Positions 57,745 through 64,000 of a stretch of 64,000 bases of DNA are shown in pieces. The notes beneath the pieces are model-generated. The model saw only the letters and a program-made list of their open reading frames with translations, did not search any database and had not been told where the DNA came from. The DNA lies in NCBI RefSeq assembly GCF_014638005.1, contig NZ_BMFG01000002.1, positions 372,624-436,623 of the forward strand, given 5' to 3'. The position numbers were made by a program, and so were the translations under genes. The stretch's first letter is position 1, and every line of letters begins with the position of its first letter. The stretch comes from Flavobacterium orientale. Its GTDB lineage: Bacteria > Bacteroidota > Bacteroidia > Flavobacteriales > Flavobacteriaceae.

Positions 57745-57837
57745 AATTATTTTTTTAATTTTACTGAATTACTTCAGGATTAATAAATATAAACTAGGAA
57801 AAAAAGGGGAGACTGCAAAAAATAACTAAAGTAGAAA

Positions 57838-57892
57838 GCTGCTTTAGCATTTTTTAACGAGGTTGCAATCAGTACAAATTTTTCCTCTCATT
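57838..57892 (-). promoter_or_regulatory. SAM-II riboswitch aptamer upstream of metK
   Basis: On the minus strand a short P1 stem, GAGG (57887-57884) with CCTC (57862-57859), encloses a loop with the conserved ATTTG and ATTGCAA segments. P1 is followed by GTTAAAAAATGCTAAAG, which matches the SAM-II 3' consensus. Loop GCA (57866-57864) can pair with TGC (57849-57847) to make the pseudoknot. The aptamer begins within about 10 bases of the predicted transcript start. Downstream, CTAAAG (57847-57842) can instead pair with CTTTAG (57831-57826), followed by a T-rich stretch, which is a candidate expression platform. Confidence 0.82.
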
Positions 57893-57900
57893 TGAATTTG

Positions 57901-60292: not shown

Positions 60293-60359
60293 AATTTATT
60301 TTTCCGTAATATTTAAAAAAATTAGAATAAAAATCTATTAAATTATTTTTAAGAAACAA

Positions 60360-60406: not shown

Positions 60407-60414
60407 TACATTTG
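60407..60414 (+). promoter_or_regulatory. -7 box of the metY operon leader
   Basis: TACATTTG matches TAnnTTTG; predicted initiation near 60421, 22 bases before leader ORF 1. The -33 region is T-rich without TTG and overlaps the end of the upstream dyad. Confidence 0.62.
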
Positions 60415-60426
60415 CCAAATCAATTA

Positions 60427-60450
60427 ATGAAATAATGAAATAATGAAATT
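60427..60450 (+). repeat. ATGAAATA octamer repeat making two minimal ORFs before leader 1
   Basis: Three 8-bp units: ATGAAATA (60427), ATGAAATA (60435), ATGAAATT (60443). Each of the first two encodes Met-Lys-stop, and the stop TAA overlaps the next ATG as TAATG. The third ATG starts leader ORF 1. Confidence 0.7.
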
Positions 60451-60514
60451 TACAATTTGCAATATGTGTTGTCGTATGATGTGGAAATCTCCGCAGAGGA
60501 AACCTATTGCATAA
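60443..60514 (+). CDS. Met/Cys-rich leader peptide 1 (attenuator)
   Basis: A 23-codon reading frame too short for ordinary gene calling. Besides the start Met it has Met at 8, 12 and 13, and Cys at 6, 9 and 10, all within 13 codons (segment CNMCCRMM); no other part of the window has such density. The downstream codons CCG CAG AGG contain GCAGAGG (60493-60499), a copy of the 3' arm of the following terminator. A ribosome stalled at the Met/Cys codons would leave this copy free to pair with the terminator 5' arm. The role is inferred by analogy with trp/his attenuators. Confidence 0.75.
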   Translation: MKFTICNMCCRMMWKSPQRKPIA

Positions 60515-60544
60515 ATTTTAAATTTTTTAAAATAAATACAATCG

Positions 60545-60573
60545 AACCTCTGCCCAAAAGCAGAGGTTTTTTT
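60545..60573 (+). terminator. attenuator terminator 1
   Basis: AACCTCTGC (60545-60553) pairs with GCAGAGGTT (60560-60568) around a 6-base loop, with T to 60573. The 5' arm can pair alternatively with GCAGAGG at 60493-60499 in leader ORF 1. It lies 30 bases past the leader 1 stop codon. Confidence 0.85.
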
Positions 60574-60583
60574 ATTATAAAAT

Positions 60584-60617
60584 CTCAGCAACTCAGAACC
60601 TCAGTAACTCAGCAACT
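60584..60617 (+). repeat. CTCAGnAA octamer repeat before leader 2
   Basis: Four units with an exact 8-bp step: CTCAGCAA (60584), CTCAGAAC (60592), CTCAGTAA (60600), CTCAGCAA (60608), then CT. It ends 8 bases before leader 2, separated by an A-run. Confidence 0.75.
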
Positions 60618-60625
60618 AAAAAAAA

Positions 60626-60715
60626 ATGAACACTACAAAAAAAATAATGATGAACCGTATGATGATGCACATGTGTTGTATCACAAATCCTCATTGCCAA
60701 AAGCGAAAGACATAA
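60626..60715 (+). CDS. Met/Cys-rich leader peptide 2 (attenuator)
   Basis: A 29-codon reading frame. Met occurs at 1, 8, 9, 12, 13, 14 and 16, and Cys at 17, 18 and 24; codons 8-18 read MMNRMMMHMCC. The frame continues through CAT TGC CAA AAG, which contains CCAAAAG (60697-60703), a copy of the 3' arm of the following terminator, 17 bases after the second of the paired Cys codons. It ends at TAA 60715, 20 bases before terminator 2. Its composition and geometry repeat those of leader 1, which makes chance unlikely. Translation is inferred. Confidence 0.82.
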   Translation: MNTTKKIMMNRMMMHMCCITNPHCQKRKT

Positions 60716-60735
60716 TCTAGTTATACACTTGTTTT

Positions 60736-60774
60736 AAAGTCCTTTTGGTAAGCCATCCAAAAGGACTTTTTTTT
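60736..60774 (+). terminator. attenuator terminator 2
   Basis: AAAGTCCTTTTGG (60736-60748) pairs with CCAAAAGGACTTT (60757-60769) around an 8-base loop, with T to 60774. CTTTTGG of the 5' arm can pair instead with CCAAAAG in leader ORF 2, extended by a G-T and a T-A pair. It lies 42 bases before metY. Confidence 0.9.
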
Positions 60775-60814
60775 ATCCAAAAATCAAATAATCCAACAAT
60801 CTAAAAATCCAAAA
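60775..60814 (+). repeat. ATCnAAnA octamer repeat before metY
   Basis: Five units with an exact 8-bp step: ATCCAAAA (60775), ATCAAATA (60783), ATCCAACA (60791), ATCTAAAA (60799), ATCCAAAA (60807), then TC and the metY ATG. The tract is free of G. Confidence 0.75.
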
Positions 60815-60816
60815 TC

Positions 60817-62109
60817 ATGAGTACACAAAAATTCTCCACAAACGCATTACACGCAGGACACGATGTAACTAAAAACGCAGGAACAAGAGCCGTCCCAATT
60901 TATCAAACATCTTCGTATGTATTCAATAACTCGCAGCACGCAGCCAATCTTTTTGGTTTAGCCGAAGCCGGTTTTATCTACACCCGATTAAACAACCCAA
61001 CCAACGACATTCTTGAGCAACGTTTAGCTGCACTAGAAGGCGGAATCGGAGCCGTTGTCACCGCATCAGGAACGGCCGCTATCGCAACAACATTCTTAAC
61101 GTTATTAAAAGTAGGTGACCATATCGTTGCTTCCAACAGTTTGTATGGCGGAACCTATAATTTATTGAGTGTAACCTTACCAAGATTAGGCATCACCACC
61201 TCATTTGTAGATCCATCAAATCCCGAAAATTTCACCAAAGCTTCGCAAGAAAATACCAGAGCTTACTTTGTTGAAAGTCTTGGTAATCCAAAATTAGACG
61301 TTCTCGATTTAAAAGCCATTTCAAAAGAAGCAAAAGCGTTCAAAGTGCCTTTTATTGTTGATAATACCGTGGCAACTCCTTATTTGTTAAACCCAATTCA
61401 ACACGGAGCAGACATTGTTATTCATTCCTTAACCAAATACATCACCGGAAACGGAACATCTTTAGGCGGAGTCATTATTGATGCCGGAAATTTTGATTGG
61501 AGCAACGGAAAATTCCCTGAATTTACAGAACCTTCAGCTGGTTATCATGGATTAAAATACTACGAGGTTTTAGGAGCAGCATCGTTTATCGCTAAAGTTC
61601 GTATTGAAGGTCTTCGTGATTTCGGTGCAGCTCTAAGTCCGTTCAACGCCTTTCAAACCATTCAAGGATTAGAAACGTTAGAAATCAGAATCAAAAAGCA
61701 CAGCGAAAATGCTTTGGCTTTAGCACAATGGTTGCAAAGTCAAGAACAAGTAGCTTGGGTAAATTATCCCGGTTTGGAAACTTCAAAATACAAAACCTTA
61801 GCCGATGAATATTTACCTGAAGGAAAAAGCGGCATCGTCACATTCGGACTCAAAGGCGGTTTTGAAGCAGCCAAAAAAGTAGCCGATGAAACCAAATTAT
61901 TTTCGCTTTTAGCGAATATCGGTGATACAAAATCATTAATCATTCACCCAGCAAGTACAACGCATCAACAATTATCGGATGCCGATCAAGAAGCAACCGG
62001 CGTTACCAAAGATTTAATTCGTCTTTCCGTCGGATTAGAAGACATCGAAGATTTAAAAGCCGATTTAAAAGTAGTATTTCAAACCATAAAAACTCCTCAA
62101 TTAACCTAG
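60817..62109 (+). CDS. metY: O-acetylhomoserine sulfhydrylase (MetY type)
   Basis: A PLP enzyme of the Cys/Met metabolism family that makes homocysteine from O-acetylhomoserine and sulfide. The 430-residue length and blocks FSTNALHAGHDVTKNAGTRA and PIYQTSSYVF fit MetY rather than the shorter MetB/MetC. The PLP lysine is Lys207 in HSLTKYITGNGTSLGG; the C-terminal block is IHPASTTHQQL. metX (same operon) supplies the acetylated substrate. Transcription has to pass two attenuators first. Both direct sulfhydrylation and cystathionine synthesis are possible in this family, but the first fits length and context best. Confidence 0.92.
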   Translation: MSTQKFSTNALHAGHDVTKNAGTRAVPIYQTSSYVFNNSQHAANLFGLAEAGFIYTRLNNPTNDILEQRLAALEGGIGAVVTASGTAAIATTFLTLLKVGDHIVASNSLYGGTYNLLSVTLPRLGITTSFVDPSNPENFTKASQENTRAYFVESLGNPKLDVLDLKAISKEAKAFKVPFIVDNTVATPYLLNPIQHGADIVIHSLTKYITGNGTSLGGVIIDAGNFDWSNGKFPEFTEPSAGYHGLKYYEVLGAASFIAKVRIEGLRDFGAALSPFNAFQTIQGLETLEIRIKKHSENALALAQWLQSQEQVAWVNYPGLETSKYKTLADEYLPEGKSGIVTFGLKGGFEAAKKVADETKLFSLLANIGDTKSLIIHPASTTHQQLSDADQEATGVTKDLIRLSVGLEDIEDLKADLKVVFQTIKTPQLT

Positions 62110-62111
62110 TT

Positions 62112-62570
62112 ATGAGTCAGAAAATAGTAAACGTTTTAGGCTATGCTAAAGCCAATAATCAATTTGTTGTAAAAGCACAAAATTTTGATGTTCGGATCAG
62201 TAAAAATGAAAATTTTCCCGAGTTAGAAGGACCAAGTCCTTTGGAATATTTGCTCGCCGGTTACGCCGGATGCATTAATGCGGTTGGAAAATTAGTAGCT
62301 AAAGAACAAGGAATATCCTTAAAATCACTTCAAGTTGAAGTTTCCGGAACCCTAAGTTTAGACAAATACCAGGGAAAAATTAGCTATGAAAGAGCCGGAT
62401 TCAAATCAATTCAAGTCGTTGTTAAACCAACTTCTGATGCCACTTTAGAGGAGTTGAAAAATTGGATTGAAGCCCTTGAAAACCGCTGTCCCATTCAAGA
62501 CAATCTGATTAATCCCACTCCGGTTGAGCTGACTTTATTAAAAGAATTCTCAACCACAGAAGCAGCATAA
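62112..62570 (+). CDS. OsmC-family thiol peroxidase-like protein
   Basis: OsmC/Ohr-fold protein. The two redox Cys expected for the family are in AGYAGCINAVGKLVAKEQG (near residue 56) and ENRCPIQDNL (near residue 124). The length of 152 residues is typical. It starts 2 bases after metY, between two enzymes of methionine synthesis, which suggests a role with sulfide, thiols or hydroperoxides in that pathway rather than osmotic stress. The actual substrate is unknown. Confidence 0.87.
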   Translation: MSQKIVNVLGYAKANNQFVVKAQNFDVRISKNENFPELEGPSPLEYLLAGYAGCINAVGKLVAKEQGISLKSLQVEVSGTLSLDKYQGKISYERAGFKSIQVVVKPTSDATLEELKNWIEALENRCPIQDNLINPTPVELTLLKEFSTTEAA

Positions 62571-62668: not shown

Positions 62669-63661
62669 ATGAAAAACTTAAAAAAAATAGATTTATTTAA
62701 TTTCAATTTAGAAATTGGAAAAGTCAGACCCTATATTCCACTTTATTTCGAAACGTTCGGACAACCCGTCGGTTCTGCTCCGGTAGTATTAGTTAATCAC
62801 GCCTTAACCGGAAACTCAACAATTACGGGGGAAAACGGTTGGTGGAATGATTTAATCGGCGAAAATAAAACCATTAATACAAATGATTTCACCGTCATCG
62901 CTTTCAATATTCCCGGAAACGGATACGATAATGTTTTCGGAAATTTAATCTCTGATTACAAAGATTTTACCATTCTCGATGTCGCAAGAATTTTTTGGGA
63001 AGGATTATTTCATCTCAATATCGATGAACTTTTCACCGTCATCGGCGGAAGTTTAGGTGGTGCAATCGCTTGGGAAATGGCTGCACAACATCCCACCAAA
63101 ATTAAAAACCTAATCCCAATTGCCACCGATTGGAAAGCGACTGATTGGGTGATTGCGAACGTACTCATTCAAGATAAAATTCTCAACAATTCCGATGATC
63201 CCATTGCCGATGCTCGTTTGCACGCGATGTTGCTTTATCGAACACCGCAGTCCATTAATCAACGTTTTAAACGCAAACAAAACAACGTTTTTGAAGTTGA
63301 AAATTGGTTAACAAATCACGGTTCCAAGCTAAAAAACCGCTTCCGATTATCATCCTATAAATTGATGAATCATCTGCTAAAAACAAATGATATTACCAAA
63401 AATAGAAAGGATTTTGTAACCGTTGCAAGTCAAATTCAAGCCAATATCCACATCGTTTCTGTCGATACCGATTACTTTTTCATTGCCGAAGAAAATCGTG
63501 AAACCTATCAAAACTTAAAAAAAATAAAAGAAAATGTTTTCTATCACGAAATTCAATCCATTCACGGTCACGATGCTTTCTTAATCGAATTCAATCAATT
63601 AGCCACTTTTTTATCACCCATTTTCAATACTCAAAACACGCATAAATATGTCAACGCTTAG
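62669..63661 (+). CDS. metX: homoserine O-acetyltransferase-like alpha/beta hydrolase
   Basis: Activates homoserine by acetylation, providing the substrate for MetY. The alpha/beta-hydrolase triad is Ser128 in GGSLGGAIAWEM, Asp268 in VDTDYFF and His301 in HGHDAF. MetX features LVNHALTGNS (near residue 41) and IPIATDWKATDW (near 150) are recognisable. The 330-residue length is a little shorter than the usual 350-380, with a reduced lid. Its stop overlaps the next gene by 14 bases. Succinyl specificity is not excluded by sequence alone. Confidence 0.88.
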   Translation: MKNLKKIDLFNFNLEIGKVRPYIPLYFETFGQPVGSAPVVLVNHALTGNSTITGENGWWNDLIGENKTINTNDFTVIAFNIPGNGYDNVFGNLISDYKDFTILDVARIFWEGLFHLNIDELFTVIGGSLGGAIAWEMAAQHPTKIKNLIPIATDWKATDWVIANVLIQDKILNNSDDPIADARLHAMLLYRTPQSINQRFKRKQNNVFEVENWLTNHGSKLKNRFRLSSYKLMNHLLKTNDITKNRKDFVTVASQIQANIHIVSVDTDYFFIAEENRETYQNLKKIKENVFYHEIQSIHGHDAFLIEFNQLATFLSPIFNTQNTHKYVNA

Positions 63662-64000
63662 AATAAATGTCATCCTCTTCGGAATCGGAAACGTAGGAAG
63701 CACGCTCATCAGTCAAGTTTTAGAAAGCCAACAATTTTTTCTCGAAAAAAGAAATATTGATTTGCGATTTCCCATCATAACCAATTCAACCGTAGCATTC
63801 TTCGAAAAAGACGGCATCAAAAACCAATGGGAAAGCAATTTTCAATCCACCGCTTTTCCTTATTCCATCGAAGATATCGTAGATTATGTTCAAACCAATA
63901 ACCTCGAAAATCTCATCGCCGTCGATGCCACTGCCAGCGAAGAGTTGATTAAATTTTACATTCCGCTCATTCAAAACGGATTTAGCATCGTAGCAGCCAA
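63648..64000 (+). CDS. homoserine dehydrogenase, 5' part (cut by window end)
   Basis: The frame is open from ATG 63648 to the right edge, 117 codons. The N-terminal Rossmann motif is VILFGIGNVGSTLI near residue 8, and AVDATASEELIKFYIPLIQNG near residue 92 matches the catalytic-domain lead-in of homoserine dehydrogenases. It reduces aspartate semialdehyde to homoserine, the substrate for the neighbouring MetX, so the operon is metY-osmC-metX-hom. It overlaps metX by 14 bases in another frame. Whether an aspartate kinase domain is fused cannot be seen. Confidence 0.85.
   Translation, partial: MSTLRINVILFGIGNVGSTLISQVLESQQFFLEKRNIDLRFPIITNSTVAFFEKDGIKNQWESNFQSTAFPYSIEDIVDYVQTNNLENLIAVDATASEELIKFYIPLIQNGFSIVAA

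Follow-up and report, generated by a model that had tools for sequence, protein, structure and literature searches.

Tandem Met/Cys leader peptides as probable transcription attenuators of the metY operon in Flavobacterium orientale

Introduction

How is a methionine operon controlled if its upstream region harbours two consecutive short reading frames, each rich in Met and Cys codons and each followed by an intrinsic terminator? This question is raised by the metY operon of Flavobacterium orientale, which is located towards the end of a stretch of 64,000 nucleotides, here referred to as the window. In attenuators of the trp and his type, the leader ORF contains codons for the amino acid that the operon produces, antiterminator and terminator exclude each other and an intrinsic terminator precedes the first gene. 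The two ORFs in the leader of Salmonella mgtCBR answer different signals, ATP and proline, and actinobacterial leader peptides with Cys runs were reportedly the subject of work by Canestrari in 2020.

Earlier articles describe the tandem attenuators of mgtCBR with two short ORFs in one leader (PMC3641672), a proposal, in general terms, of leader-peptide attenuation of amino-acid operons in Flavobacterium psychrophilum (PMC9723704), small ORFs in Bacteroides leaders (PMC7366714), exchanges between T-boxes and leader peptides (PMC2965389), tandem riboswitches including a SAM-I/T-box pair for Met on a methionine-related gene (PMC9481103) and actinobacterial Cys leaders, which precede sulfur genes with no obvious terminator, together with a lack of attenuation elements before the methionine operons of Actinobacteria (PMC1262725).

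Results

The metY operon and neighbouring RNA controls

The gene metY (60817-62109, forward strand) encodes a member of the O-acetylhomoserine aminocarboxypropyltransferase/cysteine synthase family (TIGR01326, 630.1 bits, cut-off 495.1) that is 97% identical to its counterpart in Flavobacterium sp. UBA6135. It is followed on the same strand by genes for an OsmC-like protein (62112-62570; NF041052, 59.1 bits, under the cut-off of 95), a metX-like homoserine O-acetyltransferase (62669-63661; top family TIGR01392, 176.9 bits, under the cut-off of 500) and a homoserine dehydrogenase-like protein (63648-64000), which extends beyond the end of the window and whose top families are all homoserine dehydrogenases, with scores below their cut-offs. 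Homocysteine is the product of this metY-osmC-metX-hom operon, which we count in favour of attenuation by leader peptides.

Past the window, the operon is followed by a SAM-I riboswitch just beyond the window end (L140:4512-4614, equivalent to G000:C2:437511-437613), by metH split into two genes and by metF, and a SAM-II riboswitch precedes metK on the reverse strand (57834-57893, 61.7 bits). Genome-wide searches returned the metK element as the only SAM-II match and the element before metH as the only SAM-I match. The leader region of metY (60407-60816) matched no Rfam family at gathering score, also in a relaxed search, and contains no match to a SAM riboswitch or T-box. With the SAM-II element of metK, the leaders of metY and the SAM-I element of metH, the region of roughly 14 kb that extends from metK up to metF would thus combine three kinds of RNA control for one pathway. 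No leaders were found at the paralogues L002 and L003 in the same genome. The C-terminal half of MetH (L140:5869-8979) harbours an in-frame DUF559 domain at residues 711-823 (NF007294, 88 bits, under the cut-off of 218).

Anatomy of the two leaders

Between positions 60300 and 60850, the forward strand contains a single TAnnTTTG motif, TACATTTG at 60407-60414, which we take to be the -7 element of a candidate promoter for the whole leader. Of 42 loci with two leaders, 11 have the motif at most 70 nt ahead of ORF1, with about 2 expected from a background of 0.048 per 70 nt, and one has it between terminator 1 and ORF2; a single promoter may be common to both leaders. The promoter is the weakest part of the leader. 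Two tandem two-codon ORFs (ATG AAA TAA, 60427-60443), whose stops overlap the next ATG (TAATG), lead into ORF1, a configuration where termination-reinitiation is possible.

ORF1 (MKFTICNMCCRMMWKSPQRKPIA; 60443-60514) comprises 23 codons with four Met and three Cys including the start, and its sensor codons C6, M8, C9, C10, M12 and M13 span 60458-60481. The last Met codon and a Trp codon overlap with the 5' arm of a short putative pause or protector hairpin (UGUGGA...UCCGCA, 60480-60495), whose 3' arm overlaps with the antiterminator strand GCAGAGG (60493-60499) inside the ORF. The partner of this strand, CCTCTGC, is part of intrinsic terminator 1, which with its U-tract covers 60544-60574 (stem 60544-60569). 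ORF2 (MNTTKKIMMNRMMMHMCCITNPHCQKRKT; 60626-60715) comprises 29 codons with seven Met and three Cys. Its sensor codons M8 to C18 are located at 60647-60679 and codon C24 sits on antiterminator strand 2 (TTGCCAAAAG, 60694-60703, inside the ORF), the partner of which, CTTTTGGTAA, belongs to intrinsic terminator 2 (60736-60774 with its U-tract, stem 60736-60769). All these elements are on the forward strand; in both leaders the antiterminator shares a strand with the terminator, and an intrinsic terminator lies between each leader ORF and metY. Both ORFs with their Met and Cys counts, both terminators and the TAnnTTTG motif are as described in a first-pass annotation, with the promoter as the least supported of the parts it had claimed; it had mentioned neither of the antiterminators, nor the pause hairpin in leader 1, nor the nearby SAM-II and SAM-I riboswitches. 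In six Flavobacterium loci (L184, L186, L199, L220, L202, L205), a conserved ORF of about 50-60 codons (MNTLDINTIAFQYLL... / MKTLNSIAVEYLL...) was noticed by eye between terminator 2 and metY.

Folding and covariation

When compared to dinucleotide shuffles, folding of leader 1 yielded a z of -5.05, with none of 200 shuffles as low, and that of leader 2 a z of -2.46, with 2 of 200 as low. Covariation was quantified in an alignment of type-1 leaders, which are the upstream ones (A1; 26 of 30 chosen sequences, with four from a lineage with a CCTCCC terminator omitted), and in one of type-2 leaders (A2; 28 of 37, with nine hard-to-align sequences omitted). Covariation in leader 1 is good. The type-1 antiterminator is paired in 96.1% of cells, with 9 cells changed on both sides compared to 1.6 in shuffles, and the type-1 terminator in 98.8%, with 23 such cells compared to 6.4, against a pairing of 34-64% in slid controls of these helices. 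Changes on both sides affect 2 of the 7 antiterminator pairs, which is equalled by 141 of 500 shuffles. Columns 64/127/142 and 65/126/143 vary together across all three strands, as exemplified by L066, where these read GCAGCGG, CCGCTGC and GCAGCGG. Support for the type-2 terminator is clear, with 24 both-side-changed cells compared to 7.0 in shuffles, and covariation of the type-2 antiterminator is weak (88.9% paired, 2 both-side-changed cells). Within the CCTCCC lineage, the antiterminators found were only 5-6 bp long. The pause hairpin of leader 1 is paired in 92.3% of cells and other predicted helices of this leader in 33-61%; a long-range 1:2 pairing beyond the short hairpin was rejected since it is not conserved.

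In a scan of stall positions along ORF1, the probability of the antiterminator was 0.99-1.00 at codons 6-13, 0.85 at codon 14, 0.16 at codon 15 and 0 from codon 16, and along ORF2 it was 0.96-0.97 at codons 8-18, 0.49 at codon 21 and 0 from codon 22. The probability of the terminator was 0.95-0.97 at all stall positions, and since the terminator is thus favoured at equilibrium, the antiterminator would have to act kinetically.

Placement and conservation of sensor codons

Scored in 3-nt bins 5' of the antiterminator, Met or Cys codons occupy the -15 nt position in 65 of 73 unique type-1 leaders and the -12 nt position in none of them, and in type-2 leaders their number drops from 54 of 85 at -18 nt to 10 of 85 at -15 nt. 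If the ribosome is assumed to reach 12 nt from its A site, this cut-off would fall at about the place where a ribosome with the respective codon in its A site starts to cover the antiterminator. In type-1 leaders the pause hairpin has its 5' arm right at this cut-off, to whose sharpness a constraint on the RNA may therefore contribute; in type-2 leaders the depleted stretch varies in sequence, which favours reading by the ribosome as its cause. Except for the late Cys codons of type-2 leaders, the sensor codons are placed such that a stalled ribosome would leave the antiterminator free. These late codons form a second Cys cluster on the type-2 antiterminator, at offsets of -9 to 0 nt (Cys 0.27-0.53, Met at most 0.03), where a stall should favour termination in our model.

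Sensor codons are retained throughout the genus, with Met and Cys exchanging at the same positions and both TGT and TGC in use, and the peptide sequence is not conserved beyond this Met-or-Cys identity. The tail of the ORFs drifts and even switches frame: where ORF1 overlies the antiterminator, two frames are in use, encoding PQR or SAE depending on the species, with the RNA kept. The first-pass annotation had considered that unconserved Met and Cys codons or frameshifted ORFs in homologues would speak against it; the codons turned out to be retained and changes of frame are confined to the region 3' of them.

In 48 leader-bearing loci of the genus, Cys accounts for a mean fraction of 0.03 of the sensor codons in the 6 loci from genomes with no SAM-I match, whose leaders are nearly Cys-free and Met-only, and of 0.37 in the other 42, a contrast that may reflect a single clade, since G018 and G020 are sisters in the tree and the other Cys-free ones are unplaced in it. 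We consider this relation as a lead rather than a test. In G018, the leaders are followed by metY, metX, a kinase-dehydrogenase gene and metH in one row. Two other correlates of the Cys codons were rejected. Reverse transsulfuration, by which homocysteine would supply cysteine, does not account for them: a CBS-like match is present in 70 of 81 genus genomes, with the window genome's own CBS-like protein as query (497.6 against a cut-off of 510), and does not track the Cys codons, as G018 and G072 combine a CBS-like protein with Cys-free leaders and G051 lacks the protein and has three Cys codons. The same applies to presence or absence of cysH, for which the genome of the window shows no match at E 1e-60 and yet has Cys codons.

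Occurrence at metY loci

Leaders were called with strict settings as ORFs of 12-60 residues starting with ATG, with at least 4 internal Met or Cys, at least 14% Met/Cys and a terminator within 75 nt. This strict caller detected none in 400 dinucleotide shuffles, made as 20 for each of 20 named loci over 700 nt. When both strands of the window were cut into 362 overlapping tiles of 700 nt, it responded in two tiles, and the matches were the two leaders described. Among 80 named metY loci, at least one short ORF of this kind, rich in codons for the amino acids of the pathway, was found in all 80, with two in 42 and a single one within 1000 nt in 38; as the best 80 of 505 relatives these loci come from closely related genomes and are not independent of the genus set, and in four of them the upstream sequence falls short of 1000 nt or almost does. 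In a genus sample of 50 loci, 22 carry two leaders, 23 carry one and 5 none by the strict caller, and 2 of the 50 remain with no leader by a looser caller. Tandem pairs also precede metY in other genera (L057, L066, L343). Both leaders are carried by F. aquatile (L151). In F. psychrophilum (L177) both leaders are present, and its ORF1 has no stop and reads through terminator 1 (about -341 to -215 from metY). In G006, the type-1 leader is found about 3.5 kb from metY ahead of another gene, and a large gene resembling a TonB-dependent receptor by eye (L280:5863-8709, reverse strand) separates it from the type-2 leader and metY.

Exchange with SAM-I and the wider set of leaders

A family sample was assembled from one metY locus each of 60 of the 102 genomes outside the genus that had a match. 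In 45 of these 60 loci (16, 18 and 11), SAM-I is located just upstream on the metY strand, and the strict caller detected a leader within 700 nt in none of the 45. The 15 loci with no SAM-I include 8 with a leader (searched up to 940 nt, with all calls at most 400 nt from metY) and one, L109, where SAM-II is placed just upstream on the metY strand. SAM-I and leaders are thus mutually exclusive at metY within this sample. In the genus sample, no SAM-I match was found upstream of any metY, and where SAM-I is nearby on the same contig it is located downstream, as judged by eye from the coordinates. A MetY tree of 41 proteins, picked partly by state, requires 8 changes among the four states, and its well-supported branches by themselves impose no fewer than 3 changes of the leader state, so that exchange has occurred more than once. 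More remote relatives of metY, of about 50% identity, have a Cys/Met-rich ORF downstream of SAM-I; several of these ORFs end in a run of Cys, and no terminator was called after them. This was seen in 7 of 10 SAM-I loci examined (L119, L120, L121, L124, L125, L129 and L133), six from other orders of the class and L133 from the same family, which thus contain two different sensors in series.

Strong copies of the type-1 model are found before a cysH-cysD-cysN-cysE-cysK operon in G032 and G038 (names in G032 by resemblance) and before metX and osmC in G011. At 30 cysH loci, taken from 45 matches, the looser caller identified leaders in 5, of which 3 are tandem (L292, L293 and L295, with sequences other than those at metY), and none within 900 nt at the other 25. 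At E 1e-5 the type-1 model matches 14 of 149 genomes of the family sample, and at E 0.01 some match is obtained in 37 of 41 genus genomes, many of them weak. Matches held out from the model comprise G060 of the genus and four genomes of other genera, where two precede metY, one a metX-like gene (by resemblance) and one a transposase-like ORF. Other matches in the genome of the window are weak (E 0.00027 or worse), most in one search covering the 3' hairpin part only.

Discussion

The described features suggest that the metY-osmC-metX-hom operon is very likely controlled by two ribosome-mediated transcription attenuators in series and that it is probably turned on when charged Met or Cys tRNA is short, with strong computational evidence for an attenuation by the decoding of Met and Cys codons. 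In the proposed mechanism, RNA polymerase would start slightly 3' of 60414 and a ribosome would translate ORF1. If Met-tRNA or Cys-tRNA is scarce, this ribosome would stall on codons 6-13 and, with the assumed reach of 12 nt, leave the RNA free from 60491 at the latest, which would allow GCAGAGG to capture CCTCTGC, block terminator 1 and let transcription continue. Upon fast decoding, the ribosome would cover the antiterminator up to the stop, the terminator would form and a short RNA would end near 60574. Polymerases past leader 1 would face the same test at leader 2, and read-through as the product of two similar probabilities would confer tighter repression and a steeper rise upon starvation. 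Since both ORFs contain both kinds of codons and any early stall at Met or Cys would free the antiterminator, each leader is expected to act as OR sensor and the pair as their product, which argues against the AND-type gate envisaged in the first-pass annotation. Its proposal of two serial leader-peptide attenuators that use Met and Cys codons as sensors is supported by the retention of these codons across the genus next to a drifting tail, and its remark that methionine attenuation is unusual is consistent with PMC1262725 and with our searches of the open-licence literature.

The contribution of both leaders might be questioned. It is conceivable, albeit unlikely, that one leader is regulatory and the other a decaying or redundant copy, with the tandem arrangement having no function of its own, as could be suspected from the single-leader loci among the best 80 of 505, from ORF1 of F. 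psychrophilum that runs through its terminator and from the displaced type-1 leader in G006. However, both leaders of the window retain ORF, antiterminator, terminator and codon placement, and tandem pairs recur before metY in other genera and before cysH. A related doubt concerns the cause of the stall, which could stem from arrest by the nascent peptide or from sensing of metal or redox state instead of tRNA charging. Peptides rich in Met and Cys can bind metals including copper or undergo oxidation, and the logic of the fold is the same for any cause of stalling. Still, we regard this version as improbable in light of peptides that are not conserved beyond Met-or-Cys, of the location of leaders before genes of Met and Cys biosynthesis and of the occurrence of Cys-free leaders.

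Even less probable are two explanations that dispense with attenuation by leader peptides. If the ORFs encoded functional Met/Cys-rich small proteins, with a role for example in metal binding, the terminator following each of them would be an ordinary gene end, but it would be difficult to reconcile with such a function that different species read the C-terminal part in different frames of a retained RNA, that Met and Cys interchange at the same position, that their codons end at a constant spacing from the antiterminator and that antiterminator and terminator covary; we thus find this very improbable. Marginally lower still we rate the chance that the leader RNA is an undescribed small-molecule riboswitch with incidental ORFs: SAM-I occupies the equivalent position in related genera, but no Rfam family reached its gathering score at the metY leaders and a riboswitch would leave conservation and placement of the sensor codons unexplained.

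Ribosome-mediated attenuation by Met and Cys decoding shares its general features with trp and his attenuators, namely leader ORF codons, mutually exclusive antiterminator and terminator and the location of the latter ahead of the first gene, but the metY leaders differ in the use of Met together with Cys codons, in their presence in Bacteroidota and in being two in series. In mgtCBR, two short ORFs are equally placed in tandem, although there the signals differ whereas the ORFs of metY share their types of codons. The proposal for F. psychrophilum concerns the same genus and class of mechanism, with no mention of methionine or metY in the main text (PMC9723704). The SAM-I riboswitch (RF00162) at metY of other Flavobacteriaceae acts on the same gene from the same position, but it senses SAM and contains no leader ORF, and SAM-I/T-box tandems equally consist of two serial RNA sensors, which are aptamers (PMC9481103, where the term 'leader peptide' is not mentioned). 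Finally, the actinobacterial Cys leaders, with their Cys run near the stop, resemble the ORFs at distant metY relatives and not those of the window, in whose leaders the combination of a Cys run at the stop and no intrinsic terminator, which characterises polycysteine leaders, is not found. The class of mechanism and tandem attenuators are thus already known; in the open-licence literature searched, we found neither methionine leader attenuation in Bacteroidota nor Met/Cys leader peptides that take the place of SAM-I.

On a wider scale, the leaders may form a modular regulon of sulfur amino-acid genes in Flavobacteriaceae that has repeatedly swapped with SAM-I at metY, where the homocysteine branch would be read by Met/Cys decoding and metH-metF (SAM-I) and metK (SAM-II) of the same cluster by SAM, with the choice of codons tuning the response and the late Cys cluster of type-2 leaders possibly acting as a brake upon Cys shortage, a view whose prospects we consider evenly balanced.

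The metY gene offers a clear case where, within one family, control has changed several times between a SAM-binding riboswitch and a leader peptide read by the ribosome, which turns the exchange of regulatory RNAs into a testable question. In Bacteroidota, where attenuation had been suggested earlier and where we found no dissection in the literature searched, the leaders would provide this mechanism with a precise anatomy, and their tandem arrangement constitutes a natural test of whether serial attenuators sharpen a response. If the proposed mechanism holds true, methionine, together with cysteine, would join the amino acids that are sensed by leader peptides.
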